Below, one piece after another: positions 5,768-33,045 of a stretch of 64,000 nt of DNA. The stretch's first letter is position 1; each line of letters opens with the position of its first letter. Source of the DNA: Leptotrichia wadei (GTDB lineage: Bacteria; Fusobacteriota; Fusobacteriia; Fusobacteriales; Leptotrichiaceae); the NCBI RefSeq assembly GCF_007990445.1, contig NZ_AP019841.1, forward strand, positions 1,550,001 through 1,614,000, given 5' to 3'. Below the pieces are notes generated by a model. It was not told the DNA's origin. It made no database searches and was given only the letters and a program-made list of their open reading frames with translations. The position numbers and the translations under genes are program-made.

Positions 5768-8428
5768 TTACACGTTTCTTCTTTCACGTTCTCTTCTTTC
5801 CCTTCGTGAAAGCGGACGTCTTGGTTCGTTTATCGCATCATTTGGAACATCGTCACCAATCATTTCATTTTCATTATGTTCGTATTTTACATTTGAAACT
5901 TCTTCATGTGTCAAATTATTTGTATCTTCTTCGCTACGAACTCTTAGTTTAAGGATAAATGAACTTGTTTCACGTTTTATTGCATCTATCATTTCATTAT
6001 AAACATCGAAAGCTACAATTTTATAATCGTGAATTGGATTTCTTTGTCCATAAGAACGCAATCTTATTCCTTCACGCAGTTCTGTCAAATCCTTCAAATG
6101 TTGTCGCCATTTAGAATCCAGCACTTCTAACATAATATATCTTTCGATTCTTCTAAATACTTCACTTCCAACAGCTTCTTCCTTTTCATCATAAACTTTT
6201 ATCAAGTCATCATAAACTTTGTCAGAAATTTCTTCAGCGCTTGCATCTTGTAAGTCTTCTGAAATTTCATATTCAAATGTTTCTTGAAGTTTGTCTGCCA
6301 ATAAATTGAAGTCCTTTTCTCCATTGCCTTCACCAACATAAGCTGAATTTACAATATCGTCCACTGTATCTGAAATCATTCCAGTAATCAATTCCTTAAG
6401 ATTTTCATTTTTCAAAATGGCATCCCTTTGTTCATAGACAACTTCCCTTTGAGTATTGTTTACATCATCATATTCAATAAGGCTTTTTCTTGATGAAAAG
6501 TTTCTGCTTTCAATACGTTTTTGCGCATTTTCTACAGATTTACTGATTTGTTTATGACGAATTTCCTCATCTTCATCAATTTTTAACATTTTCATCATTG
6601 CTTTTAACTTATCTCCACCAAACAATCTCATCAAGTCATCATCTAGCGACAAATAAAATTCAGATGTTCCTGGATCTCCTTGACGTCCAGCACGTCCTCT
6701 TAACTGATTGTCAATACGTCTGCTTTCGTGTCTTTCAGTTCCTAAAATAAACAGCCCTCCAGCTTCGATAACCCGTTTTTTGTCCTCTTCGCATTCCTTC
6801 GCATAAGTTTTATAAACATCTTCATATTCTGGTGTTCCCTTAACTGCAACTTTTGTAGCAAAAGACTCTGCATCTCCACCAAGTTTTATATCTGTTCCAC
6901 GTCCTGCCATATTTGTCGCAATCGTTACTGTTTTAAAACGTCCAGCCTGTGCTATGATTTCCGCTTCTCTTTCGTGATGTTTTGCATTTAATATTTCATG
7001 CGGAATTTTTGCCTTTTTAAGAAGTGCTGATACTTCTTCAGAATGTTGTATTGAAGCTGTACCGACAAGAACTGGCTGTCCCTTTTCATAAAGCTCTTCT
7101 ATTTTTCTTGCAATTGCTTTATATTTAGCATTTTTATTCATATAGATTACATCTGGCAGGTCAACTCTGGCTACAGGTCTATTTGTAGGCACTACAATAA
7201 CTTTTAACTTATAAATTTGTTTAAATTCATCTTCTTCTGTTTTTGCAGTCCCTGTCATTCCAGAAAGTTTTTCATACATTCTAAAATAGTTTTGCAGTGT
7301 AATTGTCGCAAGTGTCTGATTTTCTCCTGCAACTTCCAATTTTTCCTTAGCTTCTATAGCCTGATGCAGCCCATCTGAATAACGTCTTCCTTCCATAAGA
7401 CGCCCAGTAAATTCATCAACTATAATAACTTCATTATCATCATTAATAATATAATCTCTATCTAGTTTAAATAATTCCTTTGCCTTCAATGCCTGTGTCA
7501 AAAAATGTGTCAGTTCAACATATTCTGGCGAATACAAATTTTCAATTTTCAATATTCTTTCAACATTTTTAATCCCTTTATCAGTAATCGTAACCGTATG
7601 CGACTTTTCATCAACTTCATAGTCTTCCCAGTCTTCATCAGGGATAACTGTATTTTTCTTATCTTTAATTTCTTCAGTCTTGTAACTTCTTTTAAGTTTT
7701 TTAGCAACTTCTGCAAAAGTGTTATACCACTCTGTAGTTTCTTCAGCAGCTCCCGAAATAATAAGCGGTGTTCTCGCTTCATCAATCAAAATCGAATCTA
7801 TTTCATCGACAATAACATAATTATGCCCACGTTGAACCTTCTCATCGAGTTCTCCAACCATATTATCTCTCAAATAGTCAAATCCAAATTCATTGTTAGT
7901 TCCATAAGTAATATCACAGTTATATGCATTTTTTCTTTGTTCTGGCGTAATATTTCCAACAACAACTCCTGAAGTTAGCCCTAAAAACTCAAAAAGTCCA
8001 GCCATAATATCTCTATCCCGCTTTGCAAGATAATCATTAACCGTTACAACATGAACTCCTTTTCCTGGCAATGCGTTTAAATAAATTGCAAGTGTTGACA
8101 TAAGGGTTTTTCCTTCCCCTGTCTTCATTTCCGCAATGCTTCCCTTATGCAAAATCATTCCACCAATAAGCTGAACATCATAATGACGCATTCCTAATAG
8201 TCTTTTAGCAGTTTCTCTCACTGTCGCAAATGCTTCCACCAATATGTCATCAAGTGACTCCTTTGCCAGTCTTTCTTTAAATTCCACAGTTTTATGCTGC
8301 AGCTGCTCATCTGTCAGTTTTTCAAAAATCGGTTCAATTTCATTAATTTTATTTACCAATTTCTGCATTTTTTTTATTTCTCTATCATCTGATGTACCAA
8401 ATATTTTTTCTCCTAATTTTTTTAACAT
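5768..8428 (-). CDS. secA: Preprotein translocase ATPase SecA
   Basis: Motor ATPase that drives unfolded preproteins through SecYEG. All DEAD-motor landmarks are present: Walker A GEGKT at residues 104-108, DEID at 208-211 followed by DEARTPL, the preprotein-crosslinking domain between about 220 and 370, and the second RecA fold with TNMAGRGTDIKLGG and LRGRAGRQGDPG. 886 residues is usual. The C-terminus ends in an Arg-rich tail (SRRERRERERRNV) and lacks the Cys-rich SEC-C zinc motif used by many SecA proteins to contact SecB. An AAAGGA site precedes the ATG. It begins about 80 bases downstream of the small gene at 8506. Confidence 0.97.
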   Translation of the reverse strand: MLKKLGEKIFGTSDDREIKKMQKLVNKINEIEPIFEKLTDEQLQHKTVEFKERLAKESLDDILVEAFATVRETAKRLLGMRHYDVQLIGGMILHKGSIAEMKTGEGKTLMSTLAIYLNALPGKGVHVVTVNDYLAKRDRDIMAGLFEFLGLTSGVVVGNITPEQRKNAYNCDITYGTNNEFGFDYLRDNMVGELDEKVQRGHNYVIVDEIDSILIDEARTPLIISGAAEETTEWYNTFAEVAKKLKRSYKTEEIKDKKNTVIPDEDWEDYEVDEKSHTVTITDKGIKNVERILKIENLYSPEYVELTHFLTQALKAKELFKLDRDYIINDDNEVIIVDEFTGRLMEGRRYSDGLHQAIEAKEKLEVAGENQTLATITLQNYFRMYEKLSGMTGTAKTEEDEFKQIYKLKVIVVPTNRPVARVDLPDVIYMNKNAKYKAIARKIEELYEKGQPVLVGTASIQHSEEVSALLKKAKIPHEILNAKHHEREAEIIAQAGRFKTVTIATNMAGRGTDIKLGGDAESFATKVAVKGTPEYEDVYKTYAKECEEDKKRVIEAGGLFILGTERHESRRIDNQLRGRAGRQGDPGTSEFYLSLDDDLMRLFGGDKLKAMMKMLKIDEDEEIRHKQISKSVENAQKRIESRNFSSRKSLIEYDDVNNTQREVVYEQRDAILKNENLKELITGMISDTVDDIVNSAYVGEGNGEKDFNLLADKLQETFEYEISEDLQDASAEEISDKVYDDLIKVYDEKEEAVGSEVFRRIERYIMLEVLDSKWRQHLKDLTELREGIRLRSYGQRNPIHDYKIVAFDVYNEMIDAIKRETSSFILKLRVRSEEDTNNLTHEEVSNVKYEHNENEMIGDDVPNDAINEPRRPLSRRERRERERRNV

Positions 8429-20240: not shown

Positions 20241-20907
20241 ATGAGAATAAAAAAACTAATTATTAAACTAGGTGTTATTTTACTATTATTTGGAAGTGTC
20301 GCCTGTAAAAATAAAAATACTGAATTGGAAAAGAAAATTGCAAATTTAGAAAAGCAAAATGCTGAATTGGCTAAAAGGCAGCAAGAGCAGCAAAACTTGG
20401 CAAGTATCAAGACAAATGAAATAAAAAAAGAAAAAAAGGCAGCAAGAGCAGCAAAACTTGGCAAGTATCAAGACAAATGAAATAAAAAAAGAAAAAAAGG
20501 CAGAAATACCTTCAAAACCTAAAAAAATTTCAAATTATGAAGGAAAATTAGAAAACAGAATTTCAAACTACGAAGCCAAAAGAGATAAAATAAGCGATGA
20601 AAACGGATGGAGTGTTGAAGAAACTCAAGCAAATGAAGCTCTTAACGAAAAATTAGATGATGAGCTTACTAAAGTTTACAATTTAATTATGGAAAGATTG
20701 CCAGAAGGAAAAAAGGTAAACTTTAGAAACGAACAAAGACAATGGCTAAAAACAAGAAAAAGAAAAGTAGAAAATTCAAACAATGATGAAGATGGAAATT
20801 CTATGATGGGTGGAAGAGCAGCTGGAAATGTGGAAATAATGACTTATCAAGAATTTACAAAAGACAGATTATTTGAATTTGCAAGAATATATGATAATAT
20901 GGATTAA
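20241..20907 (+). pseudogene. LprI/DUF1311-type lipoprotein gene split by a 61-bp tandem duplication
   Basis: The 5' part (20241-20480) encodes a signal peptide with lipobox SVAC and a Lys/Glu/Gln coiled coil, then stops. The 3' part (to 20907), in another frame, carries the LprI-like pattern (DDELTKVYNLIMERL, then NEQRQWLKTRKR). A 61-bp unit is present twice in tandem at 20377-20437 and 20438-20498, followed by the first bases of a third. 61 is not a multiple of 3, so the second copy causes the frameshift. Deleting one unit restores a single 201-residue lipoprotein. The 3' frame has no plausible start or ribosome site. LprI-type proteins can inhibit host lysozyme, but Cys residues of characterised members are not seen here. 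It may be a decayed gene, a reversible switch or an assembly error. Confidence 0.75.
20377..20498 (+). repeat. Two tandem 61-bp copies inside the lipoprotein gene
   Basis: Both copies start GGCAGCAAGAGCAGCAAAAC and end in GAAAAAAA. They appear identical. A short GGCAG after position 20498 repeats the start of the unit. Confidence 0.9.
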
Positions 20908-20937: not shown

Positions 20938-21201
20938 ATGAAAAATAAAATTTTTATGTTAGGAATATTAGTATTAATATCAATAAATACAAATGCTGGA
21001 TGGGCAAAATATAATAATAAAATTGCAGATGAAATAAAAGGAATCAGTTCTCAAAATATTTATGACAGTAACAATAATTATGCTAATATTTACTATAGCA
21101 GTTATGATGATGAAAATGATGACTATTATTACTATGATGAAGATGACAACGATGATGATGGAGATTATTATTACTATTATGAATATGATGAGGAAGACTA
21201 G
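20938..21201 (+). CDS. Tiny exported Tyr/Asp-rich acidic protein, unknown
   Basis: 87 residues. A signal peptide is clear (MKNKIFMLGILVLIS..., cleavage probably after NTNA). After a short linker the last ~38 residues are almost only Asp, Glu and Tyr, with Asn and Gly, including runs of four and five Tyr. Such tails could bind cations or surfaces, but no family was recognised. An AGAAGGGA site precedes the ATG. It starts 30 bases after the broken lipoprotein gene, so both are probably one transcript, ending in the hairpin at 21237. The absence of stop codons in a low-complexity run is not by itself proof, but signal peptide, ribosome site and position support a real gene. Confidence 0.65.
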   Translation: MKNKIFMLGILVLISINTNAGWAKYNNKIADEIKGISSQNIYDSNNNYANIYYSSYDDENDDYYYYDEDDNDDDGDYYYYYEYDEED

Positions 21202-21236
21202 AACGATTTAGTTTTATTTTGAATAGAAAAATTTAT

Positions 21237-21265
21237 AAAGCGGCATGGAAATGTTCGCTTTTTTT
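21237..21265 (+). terminator. Terminator after the acidic protein gene
   Basis: AAAGCG (21237-21242) pairs with CGCTTT (21256-21261) and runs into TTTTTTT. It lies 35 bases past the stop at 21201. Confidence 0.65.
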
Positions 21266-21400
21266 GTCACTTTAAATTTTAATCATTTATAAAATATATT
21301 AATAATATATATATATATATTGTATATGACTTTGTAAAAAAATTATGATATAATAAAAGATAAAGAAATATAATAGATTACTAAGAAAGGGTGATAAATA

Positions 21401-22891
21401 TTGGAATTAGAAAAATTTATAAAAGACAATAGTGACAAATTGGTACAAATACATTGGAATGATATACTTAATGACTATGCTAAAAATATTGTTTTATCAC
21501 AAATTGTCCTTAATAATTTGAGTAAGGAAGAATTTTTTAAAGAAGAATCTAATTTTTTTGAATCAATTAATCGGAGAATAAATGATTATATTGAAAATAT
21601 AAAAAATCCAAATTATCAAATAGCAATTGTCGGAGCAATAAAAGCAGGAAAATCAACTTTAATAAATGCTCTTATTGGGCACGAACTTGCTAGCACAAAC
21701 GTAACTCCAGAAACCGCAACATTAACAAAATTTAAATATTCTGAAAAAAATTGCTTAAAAATAAAATTTTATACTAAAAATGACTGGGACAAAATTTGGT
21801 ACGATGCTACTGAAAAAAAAGCTACGACATTTATCGAAGGATATAAGCAGTTAAATGCTGATGAAGTTAAAAACCTATTACTTAATAAAAAAGATGTATA
21901 TCAAGAATTTGATAGTATCGAAGAAATGAAAAAAGAAATCTCACGTTGGACTTCTTCAAGATCTAAAGAACATTATTTTGTTAAAGAACTTGAAATTGGT
22001 ATAGACGATTTAAAGTTGCCAACTCAAATATGTCTGGTAGATACCCCTGGATTAAATGATGTCATAGATTACCGTTCAAAAATAACAAGAGATTATATCA
22101 GTAATGCGAATGCCGTAATTGTATGTGTAAACGCAAAAACATTACGAAATGAAGAATTTTTAACAATTACAAAAGTATTTTCAAAAGCAAGATACAAAAA
22201 AGATAAAGTTTATATTTTAGGAACTCAGATTGATATAATGAACTCTGCTGAAGATTGGCAAGAACAAAGAGCATTGTGGCTCGATATTCTAAAAAAGGAA
22301 GAATGCTACGGAAATGCATCAACAGCAATTAATCATTTGTTGGGTATAAGTTCTTTTGCTTATTCAGAAGCATCAAGATTAAATAGTATTTTTAATCGTG
22401 AAACTGTTTTAAAATTGACACATGAAAAATTAATAAATTTTGATGAAGCAGGAAAAATTATTGATTTGATATCAGAAAATAAATATACAGAAGAAATGCT
22501 GGCAGAATTGAAAAAAAGAATTATCAACTTTTCACAAATTGAAAAAGTTAATAAAATTATACAAAAGGAATTACTTCAAGATTTTAATAACTCAATGATT
22601 ACAGATTTTGTTGAACAATATAAAATTTTAGTAGAAGAAATAAATAATTTTAGAAATAATTACAAAAATATTTTAACTGAGAAAAAAGACGATTTAGAAA
22701 GAACTTCTGAAGAACTGAATAAAAAAGTGGAAGAAGAAAGACGTAAAATTGAAGAACTTGAAAAAATAAATGCCAGCCTTGAACAAAAAATAAAAGAAAC
22801 AACAGACAGCTTCAATTTAGATTTTGGAAAACTTGAAAATAATTTTAAAGAATTAGAAAAAGGTATCAAAAAAATTAAAATAGATAAATAA
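21401..22891 (+). CDS. Dynamin-like GTPase
   Basis: 496 residues. G1/P-loop GAIKAGKST is at 78-86, the G2 Thr lies in TNVTPETAT (about 99-107), G3 DTPGLND at 214-220 and a G4-like TQID at 275-278, an arrangement of the dynamin superfamily. The C-terminal ~90 residues are a Glu/Lys coiled coil. There is no obvious membrane helix; membrane remodelling could rest on the partner encoded next. Start: TTG at 21401, preceded by AAAGGGTGAT and an in-frame stop, with no ATG nearby upstream. It opens a tight three-gene unit with 22904 and 23654. Bacterial dynamin-like proteins act in membrane repair, vesicle release or phage defence; which applies here is not shown. Confidence 0.85.
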   Translation: MELEKFIKDNSDKLVQIHWNDILNDYAKNIVLSQIVLNNLSKEEFFKEESNFFESINRRINDYIENIKNPNYQIAIVGAIKAGKSTLINALIGHELASTNVTPETATLTKFKYSEKNCLKIKFYTKNDWDKIWYDATEKKATTFIEGYKQLNADEVKNLLLNKKDVYQEFDSIEEMKKEISRWTSSRSKEHYFVKELEIGIDDLKLPTQICLVDTPGLNDVIDYRSKITRDYISNANAVIVCVNAKTLRNEEFLTITKVFSKARYKKDKVYILGTQIDIMNSAEDWQEQRALWLDILKKEECYGNASTAINHLLGISSFAYSEASRLNSIFNRETVLKLTHEKLINFDEAGKIIDLISENKYTEEMLAELKKRIINFSQIEKVNKIIQKELLQDFNNSMITDFVEQYKILVEEINNFRNNYKNILTEKKDDLERTSEELNKKVEEERRKIEELEKINASLEQKIKETTDSFNLDFGKLENNFKELEKGIKKIKIDK

Positions 22892-22903
22892 GGAGGAGAA
22901 ATT

Positions 22904-23653
22904 ATGGGATTTTGGTCTGCAATTGGAGGAGTTCTTAAAGCAATTGGAAGTGTGATATTTACTCCAGCAAGGGTAATTACCTGGGTAGCCGAAAAAATTT
23001 TCAGTTTAGGTGATACCCCTAGTTACAATTCAAGCACAGCAACTGTTGATGAAACTAAAAAAGTTAATGAACTTTTAGAAAAATGTATAAAGGGATATAG
23101 TAGAGAAGCCGAAGAATACGATAAATTAGCTCAAAACATTATAAAAGATAATTTTCGTACAATAGAAGGAAAACTTTCTGAAATTAACAATGCATCTGAT
23201 ACACCGATAATTGATAATTTTGTCTTCGAGAGCTTTAAAAATAATGCTAAAAATATAAATAAAGGCCTAGATAAGATATACTCAAAACAAATATCCAATA
23301 CTTTTTCATTAAACAATAATAAATTGCTAGATATTCTTAAACTTGATAAAGGAAATAAAAAAAATGATAAATTGAGAGATTTAGCAGTAAATACTGTTAC
23401 AAAGGCAAATAATACATTATTATGTGAATTATCTGACTTTACAAAAGAACAGCAAAATTTTATTTCTGAAAAACTTTCAGAATATATGACAAATAGAAAA
23501 AATACTTTGATTACTTCTAAAAATGAAACAGAAAAAATATTAGCAAGTTTGAAAAAAGATGATAATGAAAGAATGCAATTAAAAAATTATTATAAAAATT
23601 TATTGGATGAAATAAATTTACTAGGAAAAATTTTAAATTTAGGTGGTAAATAA
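22904..23653 (+). CDS. Unknown partner of the dynamin-like GTPase, amphipathic N-terminus
   Basis: 249 residues, not recognised. Residues 1-35 are Gly/Ile/Val/Trp-rich (GFWSAIGGVLKAIGSV, then ITWVAEKIF), suggesting a membrane-inserting amphipathic or hydrophobic helix rather than a cleaved signal. The rest is charged and helical, with likely coiled coil at both 60-110 and 175-240. The start has an AGGAGGAG site and is 12 bases after the GTPase stop, so it is almost certainly co-expressed. A membrane tether or bundle-forming partner of the GTPase is inferred from position and composition only. Confidence 0.7.
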   Translation: MGFWSAIGGVLKAIGSVIFTPARVITWVAEKIFSLGDTPSYNSSTATVDETKKVNELLEKCIKGYSREAEEYDKLAQNIIKDNFRTIEGKLSEINNASDTPIIDNFVFESFKNNAKNINKGLDKIYSKQISNTFSLNNNKLLDILKLDKGNKKNDKLRDLAVNTVTKANNTLLCELSDFTKEQQNFISEKLSEYMTNRKNTLITSKNETEKILASLKKDDNERMQLKNYYKNLLDEINLLGKILNLGGK

Positions 23654-23932
23654 ATGAAAAACAGAAAAGAATTAATTGGAAATTTTTTATTTTTTCCAAA
23701 AAATGAAGGTAAAAAAATAACCCAAAAATTAAATGATATTTTGAAAAATCAAAAAGAAATAAAAGATGATATAACTGAAATAAAACAAATATTAAAAGAA
23801 TATTCTAAGTTAGAAAAATCATATAATTCAGATATAAAAAAAATTTATAAAATTATAAATCAACTACTTTTAAAAGATTTATTAAAAAAACACAAAGACT
23901 TACTAGATGATATAAAAAATGACAACTATTAA
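23654..23932 (+). CDS. Small coiled-coil protein, third gene of the GTPase unit
   Basis: 92 residues, Lys/Ile/Leu/Asp-rich and predicted helical throughout (heptads in about 25-90). The ATG directly follows the TAA of the preceding gene, pointing to translational coupling; a weak GGTGG lies upstream. No family recognised and no signal peptide. It may be an assembly or regulatory subunit for the two preceding proteins. Confidence rests on coupling and the operon context. Confidence 0.6.
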   Translation: MKNRKELIGNFLFFPKNEGKKITQKLNDILKNQKEIKDDITEIKQILKEYSKLEKSYNSDIKKIYKIINQLLLKDLLKKHKDLLDDIKNDNY

Positions 23933-24161
23933 TTTTACCCGAACAGCCTAATTTTTTATTTTTTCCCTTTAACGAATCTAAAATTTATAATATAAAGCCA
24001 CTTTTTTTATTGTTCTCTTTAATTATTTAGAAAGTTTTTGGAATCTCTTTAAATTTTATCTTTATAGTCTAGATTAGTTGATATATTGAAATAAATACTT
24101 TAAATTTTTAAAACACAACATTTTCAAAGCCAAAAAAAATTAAAATAATATAAAAATATTG

Positions 24162-24167
24162 TATAAT
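24162..24167 (+). promoter_or_regulatory. Probable -10 box of the OmpA-type lipoprotein gene
   Basis: TATAAT 43 bases before the ATG at 24211. No good -35 was found at the usual spacing in the AT-rich upstream DNA. Confidence 0.35.
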
Positions 24168-24210
24168 CCAACTAAAAGTTAAAAAGAGTAAATTTTAAGG
24201 AGGAGTCAAA

Positions 24211-24858
24211 ATGAAAAAAGTATTGGCAATTACTATGTTATCAGCATTGGCATTGGTTTCTTGTACAACTGCTGCTGATGGAACTAAGAAAATTAGTAAA
24301 ACTGGAATTGGTGCTGGAATTGGTGCGGCTGCAGGAGCGGCTATTGGGCAAGTTATTGGGAAAGATACAAAAGGTACATTGATTGGTACAGCTGGAGGAG
24401 CTGCAGTTGGTGCGGCCATTGGAAACATTTTTGATAGACAGGAAAAAGAGTTAAAAGATAAATTACAAGGAACTGGTGTAGATGTAAAAAGAACTGGTGA
24501 AGGTGAAATTAAATTAACAGCACCTGAAAACATTACTTTTGATACAAACAGCTATGTGGTTAAACCACAATTTAGAAAGACATTGGATTCGGTAGCAACT
24601 GTATTAAATACTTATCCTGATTCAACAATTGTAGTTTCAGGACATACAGATACGACAGGAACTGATGCAATCAACAATCCACTTTCTGTAAATCGTGCAA
24701 GTTCAGTAGCATCTTACCTTGAATCACAAGGAATTTCAACTTCAAGAATAACTTCACGTGGTTACGGAAGCAAACAGCCAATTGCAAGCAATGCAACAGA
24801 AGCAGGAAGAGCTCAAAACAGAAGAGTTGAAATTGCTATAATTGCAAATCAAAAATAA
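24211..24858 (+). CDS. OmpA-family peptidoglycan-binding lipoprotein with glycine zipper
   Basis: 215 residues. The signal peptide ends in lipobox LVSC (Cys18). A glycine-zipper segment (GIGAGIGAAAGAAIGQVIG and a second one) at about 35-75 probably packs against the membrane. The C-terminal OmpA-like domain has NITFDTNSYVVKP, SGHTDTTGTDAINNPLSVNRA and GYGSKQPIASN, then GRAQNRRVEI, which bind meso-diaminopimelate-type peptidoglycan. It is the YiaD type, tethering outer membrane to the wall. AAGGAGGAG precedes the ATG and a strong terminator follows, so it is monocistronic. Confidence 0.92.
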   Translation: MKKVLAITMLSALALVSCTTAADGTKKISKTGIGAGIGAAAGAAIGQVIGKDTKGTLIGTAGGAAVGAAIGNIFDRQEKELKDKLQGTGVDVKRTGEGEIKLTAPENITFDTNSYVVKPQFRKTLDSVATVLNTYPDSTIVVSGHTDTTGTDAINNPLSVNRASSVASYLESQGISTSRITSRGYGSKQPIASNATEAGRAQNRRVEIAIIANQK

Positions 24859-24871
24859 TTGAAAATTTTTT

Positions 24872-24914
24872 AGGAGTTTTTTCAAATTGAGTTTTGAATT
24901 AGCTCCTTTTTTTC
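24872..24914 (+). terminator. Terminator after the OmpA-type gene
   Basis: AGGAG (24872-24876) pairs with CTCCT (24903-24907), with an inner TTCAAA/TTTGAA stem, followed by a run of Ts. It begins 13 bases past the stop. Confidence 0.75.
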
Positions 24915-24967
24915 TGCTTCTAATTATATTTTTACTTAATTTATTTTCTTTAAATAATGAATTTATG

Positions 24968-25058
24968 CTATTTTCCATTTAAATAGAAAACTAGTTGCAT
25001 AATTCCTTATTAGCAAATAATGAAATATGGCTTCTATTTTTAAACAGGGTTTAGTATA
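24968..25058. repeat. Diverged copy of palindromic family C
   Basis: CTATTTTCCATTTAAATAG at 24968-24986 is identical to a block in C1 (5630-5648), and the right side TTTTTAAACAGGGTTTAGTA matches C1's TTTTAAATAGGTTTAGTA. The middle is unrelated and lacks the CAAGGGG hairpin. Confidence 0.5.
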
Positions 25059-25085
25059 AAATAAATTTCTATTTAGGAGGTTTTT

Positions 25086-25904
25086 ATGAGAAAAAACATA
25101 TTATCAAAATTTATAATATTAACGGGGCTTTTATTTAGTTTTGCTTTAAATGCTGGAAATAAGGAAAATTTTAATAATTTTGAAAAGTTTTCAGCCAGAA
25201 TGTCAAATAATCCAGATTATATCAGTTATGCGATAATTTCAGGAAACGGAAATAAATATCCTGTTCAGCTGAATGTTGGAAATTATCTGGCTTTTATGCC
25301 TTCAAGATATGCGGCAATCAATGTTTATGAATTTTTATCCGATACTTTGAAAAAAGATTTTAAAATTATAAAAATAAATAAAAAGGGAAAAACAACGAAT
25401 GAATCAAAAATTATAAAATATTCGCCAAATGATTTTTTTTCTAATTATACAGAAAATACAGATTCTGAAAAATCTGAAATGAAATCAATGGGAATGGTAT
25501 TTGCAGGCGTAAAAAATGTCGGTGCAGGCGAATATAAAATAACTGCTTACGGAAACAAAGGAATTTCTGGCGGGATTGACAGTAAAGGATTAAATTGGCT
25601 GAATTTAGCATTTATTCCGACAAATTCAGCATTTTATATAAAAATAAATAATGATAGAAATCTTGTATGGAGTCCAAATCGTGATTATAACAGTATTCAG
25701 TATACTTTTTCAATAGAAAATGAAAAAATTGAAGTTGCAGATAAAAAAGGAAAACATTATATGTCAATTTATCAAAAAGATAATTCCTTGTTTGTTGAAA
25801 TGGCAAAATATAATGTTGAATTCAAAATAAATCAGGCTCAAAATCAGCTGGAATATTGGATAAATCATAAATTAAAGTATGTAGAAAAGTATCAAGTTAT
25901 TTAA
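25086..25904 (+). CDS. Exported protein of unknown function
   Basis: 272 residues with a clear signal peptide (cleavage near ALNA-GN, about residue 23). The mature part appears beta-rich, with GAGEYKITAYGNKGISGG, an FIPTNSAFYIKIN stretch and aromatic strands towards the C-terminus. No family recognised and no catalytic motif seen. AGGAGG precedes the ATG. It stands alone between the OmpA-type gene and the phosphate symporter gene. A periplasmic or surface location is likely. Confidence 0.6.
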   Translation: MRKNILSKFIILTGLLFSFALNAGNKENFNNFEKFSARMSNNPDYISYAIISGNGNKYPVQLNVGNYLAFMPSRYAAINVYEFLSDTLKKDFKIIKINKKGKTTNESKIIKYSPNDFFSNYTENTDSEKSEMKSMGMVFAGVKNVGAGEYKITAYGNKGISGGIDSKGLNWLNLAFIPTNSAFYIKINNDRNLVWSPNRDYNSIQYTFSIENEKIEVADKKGKHYMSIYQKDNSLFVEMAKYNVEFKINQAQNQLEYWINHKLKYVEKYQVI

Positions 25905-26067
25905 TAGAATTTACCAAATAAATTTTATAAATTTTGAATTACATACTATTTTTTATTTGAAATTCTAGTAAAAAAAAGTAGAAAATTGAAAAAAAATATG
26001 GTATAAATACAACGTGATAGAATTTTTAAAACTAAAATAAAATAAAAATAAAGAGAGGATTGATTTG

Positions 26068-32535: not shown

Positions 32536-33045
32536 ATGAAAAAAGCAAAAAAAATTTCCCTCACAAGAAGCCAGAACATGGCAAGAATAAAATCCAAAAA
32601 TACAAAACCTGAAATCTATATCCGTAAATTACTTTATAAAATGGGATATAGGTACAGAGTGAACTATTCACAGCTTCCAGGAACACCTGATATTTTTATT
32701 CTGAAATATAATACAGCAATATTTGTAAATGGGTGTTTCTGGCATAGGCATAAAAATTGTAAAATTGCAACTTTTCCTAAGACAAACACGGAGTATTGGG
32801 AAAAGAAGTTCAAAAGAAATGTGGAGAGGGATATTGAGGTTTATGAGAAACTTTTTGAGATGGATATTAGTGTGATTACGATTTGGGAATGTGAAATTAA
32901 TAAAATGCAACGAAATGAAGAATATAAGGAAAAATATTTGAAAATTTTGAAGGATAGAATCGAAAGAGTCTTTAATTATGAAGAAAAAGACATTTCAGTT
33001 CAGATGGAAGTTGCAGAGAAAAATAAGAAATATCCAAAAATTTAA
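32536..33045 (+). CDS. vsr: Very short patch repair (Vsr) endonuclease
   Basis: Nicks DNA 5' of T in T:G mismatches produced by deamination of 5-methylcytosine. Motifs match the family: TRSQNMARIKSKNTKPE, then LPGTPDI with the catalytic Asp, and NGCFWHRHKNC with the Trp/His and a zinc-site Cys/His. WECEI and the ERDIEVYEKL helix follow. 169 residues, slightly longer than E. coli Vsr owing to a C-terminal tail. It starts 8 bases after purB with little ribosome site, so it may be translationally coupled. No cytosine methyltransferase gene is nearby, which is unusual for vsr. Confidence 0.93.
   Translation: MKKAKKISLTRSQNMARIKSKNTKPEIYIRKLLYKMGYRYRVNYSQLPGTPDIFILKYNTAIFVNGCFWHRHKNCKIATFPKTNTEYWEKKFKRNVERDIEVYEKLFEMDISVITIWECEINKMQRNEEYKEKYLKILKDRIERVFNYEEKDISVQMEVAEKNKKYPKI

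Follow-up and report, generated by a model that had tools for sequence, protein, structure and literature searches.

A compact dynamin-like GTPase and a newly defined partner protein in an accessory gene module of Leptotrichia wadei and scattered gut and mouth bacteria

Several bacterial dynamin-like GTPases that act with an operon-encoded partner or on membranes have been described. DLP1 and DLP2 of Campylobacter jejuni form an operon-encoded two-protein membrane system in which both proteins are full-length dynamins with a trunk and tip (PMC6104087), and LeoABC of ETEC is a three-gene unit with an accessory distribution in which all three proteins are dynamins (PMC4159319). The RdcA/RdcB pair of Escherichia coli (YjdA, or CrfC, and YjcZ) combines one dynamin-like GTPase with a non-GTPase operon partner; it is soluble and regulates a cyclase, so that a dynamin-like GTPase and its partner need not act on membranes (PMC6510439). 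Bacillus subtilis DynA (PMC8844932) and mycobacterial IniA (PMC6715688) are active on membranes, each being a single large protein with its own membrane-binding parts. Here we consider a three-gene locus in a 64,000-nucleotide stretch of Leptotrichia wadei DNA (the window; contig NZ_AP019841.1), which encodes a GTPase, a partner protein termed P2 and a small third protein termed P3. The C. jejuni proteins (5owv, 5oxf) match the GTPase best in both sequence and fold, and the locus resembles theirs in its operon organization and in its membrane action, which is predicted here, but P2 is devoid of a GTPase domain, and trunk and paddle are missing from the GTPase. The three-gene unit and its accessory distribution recall LeoABC, but no Leo model matches P2 or P3, and the GTPase falls well below the cut-off of the LeoA/HP0731 family NF041922 (30.1 versus 325 bits). 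The locus shares with RdcA/RdcB the combination of a single GTPase with a non-GTPase partner, but RdcA is larger (84 kDa) and the partners are unrelated by Pfam, with no match above cut-off. Unlike DynA and IniA, the GTPase and P2 divide the predicted activities between two chains. No description of this GTPase-P2 pairing was found in the open-licence literature.

The three open reading frames all lie on the + strand in one transcriptional direction, as had been proposed from the sequence: the GTPase (496 residues, 21401..22891), identified from a Dynamin_N match, an AF2 model, and Foldseek; P2 (249 residues, 22904..23653), which has a hydrophobic amphipathic N terminus (residues 1-36) followed by a long-helix bundle; and P3 (92 residues, 23654..23932), a coiled-coil protein that is specific to Fusobacteriota. 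The 12-base gap between the first two genes is present and contains GGAGGAG, and P3 starts immediately 3' of the P2 stop codon, which agrees with the direct coupling originally described. A ribosome-binding site of the AAAGGG type, GAAAGGGTG, can be read from the sequence 5' of the TTG start of the GTPase (21385..21393, + strand). A promoter-like site with TG ahead of its -10 (ATGACT-17-TATAAT; 21326..21354, + strand) lies 47 bases 5' of the GTPase start, but this is a consensus match alone, and 25 such sites were found against 22.8 expected, so that it is weak when taken by itself. No intrinsic terminators were found within the module, and the trio segment has the lowest GC content in the window (0.24 versus about 0.30).

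The assignment of the first protein to the dynamin superfamily is borne out by its Dynamin_N match (3.5e-20; 73 bits against a cut-off of 27), its motifs, and its predicted fold, and the possibility of a non-dynamin fold, raised in advance as a test, is contradicted by the model. The G1 (GAIKAGKST), G2 (Thr105 in TPETATLT), and G3 (DTPGL) motifs are invariant or nearly so among 32 relatives, as is an unusual G4, Thr275-x-x-Asp278, which has the form TxxD rather than (N/T)KxD. The best sequence profile match in the PDB is 5owv (6e-35). The AF2 model (pLDDT 83) has N-terminal neck helices, a G domain at about residues 70-320, and C-terminal helices; in Foldseek searches it matches the bacterial dynamin-like pair 5oxf (E 2.7e-14), the minimal G-domain construct of SynDLP (9em9; 2.4e-13, TM 0.51) and also mitofusin, BDLP, LeoA, and MxA. 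Superposition fails at the helical arms, which keeps the TM-scores of the full model modest (about 0.5 or less). In the model and in hydropathy plots, no stalk, trunk, paddle, or hydrophobic tip segment is present in the 496-residue chain, and the original prediction that it has no membrane helix was correct, since the hydropathy maximum (1.47) falls at the P-loop strand. By predicted fold, the protein is therefore a dynamin-superfamily G domain without dynamin's own membrane part, and for this reason it is filed here as dynamin-like and the GTPase-P2 pair as a variant. Dimerization-driven GTP hydrolysis and membrane remodeling are traits of the superfamily that this GTPase may share. It is the sole Dynamin_N protein of its genome.

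P2 matches no Pfam, NCBIfam, or PADLOC family, and its model gives no significant match to PDB folds. The AF2 model (pLDDT 81) is helical throughout, with N-terminal helices at 2-18 and 21-36 and long helices at 48-97 and 151-216; its confidence is low at the N-terminal helices (pLDDT 58-65 for residues 1-30). Residues 1-18 rank within the top 1.2% of 17,663 segments from the window by hydrophobic moment and within the top 3.3% by hydrophobicity. The proposal that P2 links the GTPase to the membrane stands in part, in that the hydrophobic amphipathic N terminus and the predicted helical body suit such a role. Sequence matches of P2 and P3 in the PDB were coiled-coil noise, and an identification of P2 as a recognizable dynamin stalk or trunk was rejected, as BDLP, MxA, and Drp1 were matched only at E above 1. 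Relatives of P2 share a conserved body, with N termini that are rich in Gly/Trp, Gly/Ala-hydrophobic, or composed of a Cys repeat.

A profile-guided scan of 84,980 species recovered 35 relatives of the GTPase, a lower bound because the scan requires exact matches to two short peptides; with P2 alone, the first scan of the genome collection gave no match, the peptide patterns being too specific. The relatives are from Ruminococcus-type and Selenomonadales Bacillota, Spirochaetaceae, Treponema, Brachyspira, and Thermoguttaceae, with many gut or rumen genomes among them, and the module as a whole is scattered in gut and mouth bacteria. By P2 profile, P2 is encoded nearby in 40 of 41 GTPase loci, which include a few near-duplicates (L029/L030 and L044/L045), usually one to three genes downstream. 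In the single exception, L057, an open reading frame of 1,030 residues follows the GTPase after 201 bases. In the Mitsuokella family, searches led by P2 found it in 9 of 107 genomes; together with second loci in Brachyspira and Ruminococcus, they added five new loci (three of the eight regions fetched were already known), and all five have an adjoining GTPase, one of them fragmentary. As the adjacency is found in both directions, each member predicts the other. The prospect that homologues would mostly occur without their partners is thus contradicted for P2, and the predicted gene neighborhoods show that GTPase and P2 are co-inherited across at least three phyla. No P2 was found on plasmids or phages (with a Ruminococcus P2 as query), the only GTPase on plasmids, apart from remote dynamins, is the copy on an E. 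eligens megaplasmid, no copies were found in viral contigs, and the phage collection gave a single distant match (25% identical over 38%). Three consecutive dynamin-family genes are present on IncF-type plasmids of E. albertii and E. coli (L021 4108-9214 and L022 4108-9214); they are only remotely related to the window GTPase, and a CFI-box-CTERM gene follows them in one record.

P3 is present in all five fusobacterial trios, but its profile detects no relative above noise outside them, and it is therefore not the general component originally supposed (5 of 41 loci by profile, Fusobacteriota only). It matches no Pfam, NCBIfam, or PADLOC family, its PADLOC matches being coiled-coil noise. Other small coiled-coil proteins take a similar position elsewhere, but kinship of P3 with those beside P2 in Ruminococcus is unsupported (hhalign probability 1.7%). 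In the second Ruminococcus locus, where the GTPase is a fragment, P2 is immediately followed by a tandem array of three diverged small coiled-coil proteins that are copies of one another (L090 5-1458).

Among 33 genomes of the family examined, GTPase and P2 are found in exactly the same 4, all within one genus (4 of its 13 genomes), and P3 follows in each. The trio is found in 5 of 98 genomes of the phylum, the fifth (G069) being from another family of the same order. The four other genomes have the same trio in the same order, and identities for the three of the same genus range from 92/88/83% down to 48/37/35%; judged from these comparisons, the arrangement is not a product of chance. Two sites are occupied, that of the window in G000 and G008, and one beside a HAD hydrolase gene in G015 and G016. 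Downstream of the trio site, the genome G016 matches the window at about 94% identity, yet it lacks window positions 21334..24092 (2.76 kb, unstranded), with 16 bases in their place; by blastn, window 21185-21333 corresponds to 5620-5766 of L076, and 24093-26000 to 5783-7689. The same genome carries a diverged trio elsewhere (35-48% protein identity), and the flanks of the second site occur without the trio in the other genomes of the genus. These two unrelated sites, their empty counterparts, and the 4 of 13 genomes agree with the original view of the trio as conserved, patchy, and non-housekeeping, and contradict universal presence in the genus. No transposase or integrase was recognized beside the window trio.

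What the window trio site contains varies across the genus, and autotransporter-like (about 1,080 residues), oxidoreductase-like, and small exported genes occupy it in other genomes; the interval from a tRNA-dihydrouridine synthase gene to an OmpA-like gene is an insertion hotspot, and a very similar autotransporter-like gene of about 1,080 residues is found at the window trio site in L015 (9188-12415), L077, and L080. The small, fast-changing exported genes and repeats noted earlier around the trio are present. A perfect 61-base tandem duplication (window 20373-20494) lies inside a small lipoprotein-like gene and, as 61 is not a multiple of 3, apparently splits it into overlapping frames (20241-20480 and 20458-20907); from its sequence it appears to resemble a frameshift or phase-variation event. 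The small exported protein encoded at 20938-21201 ends in a repetitive, Asp/Tyr-rich tail; it recurs in L076, L078, L079, and L081, its tail varying in length among species (87 to 126 residues), and the protein encoded at 32536-33045 reads like a Vsr-type very-short-patch-repair endonuclease.

The operons of the relatives are larger, a point missed by the original prediction, and include a radical SAM enzyme, an LpxD-like protein, and a HerA-type ATPase. Those of Ruminococcus and Selenomonadales encode a hexapeptide-repeat protein and, in most cases, also a radical SAM/SPASM protein and coiled-coil proteins. The radical SAM/SPASM protein is closest to CefB-type maturases, but it is far from the CefB cut-off (NF038107; 142-143 versus 600 bits); the CX3CX2C motif is present in 20 of 20 of these proteins. 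Where the enzyme is present, the N terminus of P2 is a CCxG[D/N] repeat with Cys at every fifth position, and these N termini contain 80 instances of Cys-x4-Cys, where shuffles predict 27, and 60 of Cys-x3-[Asp/Asn], where they predict 25; no NCBIfam model matches the repeat. The radical SAM gene and the Cys-rich P2 occur together in 20 of 20 loci and neither occurs in the 15 others, a count that omits loci cut by contig ends and that corresponds to two independent changes on the GTPase tree, both concordant, so that its statistical weight is modest. An apparent exception, L046, was an artifact of open reading frame calling, as its P2 starts at 8091 as MGCCVGDCCVMNCGFCC. PapB introduces thioether links in Cys-X3-Asp/Glu motifs (PMC9413430), and the relatives resemble the PapA/PapB ranthipeptides (PMC9413430) and CefB (NF038107) in having a maturase beside a sequence with Cys at every fifth position and rich in CX3[D/N]. 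They differ in that the repeat is the N terminus of a 240-270-residue helical GTPase partner rather than a short precursor peptide, and the window's own trio lacks the pairing altogether. From the exact co-occurrence, the enzyme probably modifies the N terminus of P2 in the Clostridia-like relatives. In the Ruminococcus group without the enzyme, P2 starts with a Gly/Ala-rich hydrophobic or amphipathic-looking segment, and this alternation suggests that the putatively modified repeat and the hydrophobic segment may serve the same job.

The LpxD-like hexapeptide protein lies inside the GTPase operon in L056 (9371-10315), L031 (9380-10393), L041 (9265-10857), and L092 (6868-8571). One copy tested reaches an LpxD-type NCBIfam cut-off, and the histidine motif is kept in most. 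The protein is also encoded in Ruminococcus-type genomes, which should be without lipid A, and in some Selenomonadaceae a P2-like N terminus with the Cys repeat is fused in front of it. A HerA/VirB4-like ATPase of about 980 residues, a relative of NF033849, is found in L056 (3745-6696), with equivalents in 14 other loci; in Selenomonadales-type operons it lies upstream of the GTPase together with one or two small genes.

The complementary predicted parts and the co-inheritance of the two proteins suggest that P2 is the membrane part missing from the GTPase. We consider it somewhat probable (about 0.6, for the two propositions jointly) that GTPase and membrane-binding P2 constitute a split dynamin and that the trio moves horizontally, as an accessory module formed around this near-obligate pair. 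P2 would lie on the cytoplasmic face of the membrane through its N terminus and bind the GTPase, so that together they might act as a split dynamin, with GTP-driven dimerization or conformational change leading to a membrane being tethered, deformed, or sealed; P3, as a small coiled-coil protein, would act in assembly. In the Clostridia-like relatives the anchor would be replaced by the CCxG[D/N] repeat, probably modified by the radical SAM enzyme of the same operon. That the trunk anchor is interchangeable, being an encoded hydrophobic segment in the window and a thioether-cross-linked Cys repeat in relatives, is a more speculative extension that we regard as rather doubtful. The alternative that the three genes are mere neighbors without a common function could draw on the lineage specificity of P3, but it is highly improbable given that the genes recur in the same order at two sites and in five genomes, either overlapping slightly or separated by a few bases, and for GTPase and P2 it is already contradicted by their adjacency in distant phyla.

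The patchy distribution fits a conditional job, and fits repair of envelope damage and phage defense alike. In defense, the pair would sense or seal membrane damage caused by infection, or kill the infected cell by membrane remodeling, a role that is possible but less than probable. It gains from the patchy, mobile character of the module with its clean indel, from adjacent regulators (XRE-type at 8 relatives, WYL at the E. eligens copy), from the Gp157-like gene, ArdC, Rad52, and Fic/Doc genes that adjoin the G069 copy, and from the ability of B. subtilis DynA to limit phage lysis (PMC8844932). PADLOC adds weak Leo matches, the GTPase partially matching LeoA/LeoBC and mad8 and P2 matching nothing, but the locus does not reach any curated defense model, and no copies are present in the phage records or viral contigs searched. 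The frequent adjacency to defense genes that had been named beforehand as support does not hold generally, as the 98 flanking proteins are mostly ordinary and, by raw count, single members only matched restriction-modification or Csx1-type models. A module for envelope stress or membrane maintenance like DynA or IniA, carried as an optional extra, is likewise possible without being the probable answer: dynamin-like proteins with such roles are known (PMC6715688, PMC8844932), and a DnaJ-domain/DUF1232 protein that follows the G069 copy and DUF1232 proteins that precede the Spirochaetaceae copies hint at membrane or chaperone links, but most genomes of the genus lack the module, and in some there is no Dynamin_N protein of any kind. 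It is improbable that the locus works in signaling, with GTPase and partner as a soluble pair that would switch a membrane enzyme and remodel no membrane. The precedent is RdcA, a dynamin-like GTPase that depends on one partner from its operon, RdcB, and targets a diguanylate cyclase (PMC6510439), and the CrfC/RdcA model is weakly matched (1.1e-7); however, the curated CrfC cut-off is missed by far (30.5 versus 1146 bits), P2 matches neither YjcZ nor any Pfam family, and its N terminus is hydrophobic whereas RdcB is described as soluble.

P2 is thus a newly defined family with no annotated function that is linked, in several phyla, with a compact dynamin-type GTPase, and with the split-dynamin reading of GTPase and P2 the pair offers a tractable two-protein test of whether the motor and membrane parts of dynamin can work as separate chains. 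The co-occurrence of the radical SAM enzyme with the Cys repeat points to a possible connection of RiPP-type modification with membrane GTPases that can be tested directly and, if the interchangeable anchor is real, it would mean that RiPP-type chemistry is used on a membrane-remodeling machine.
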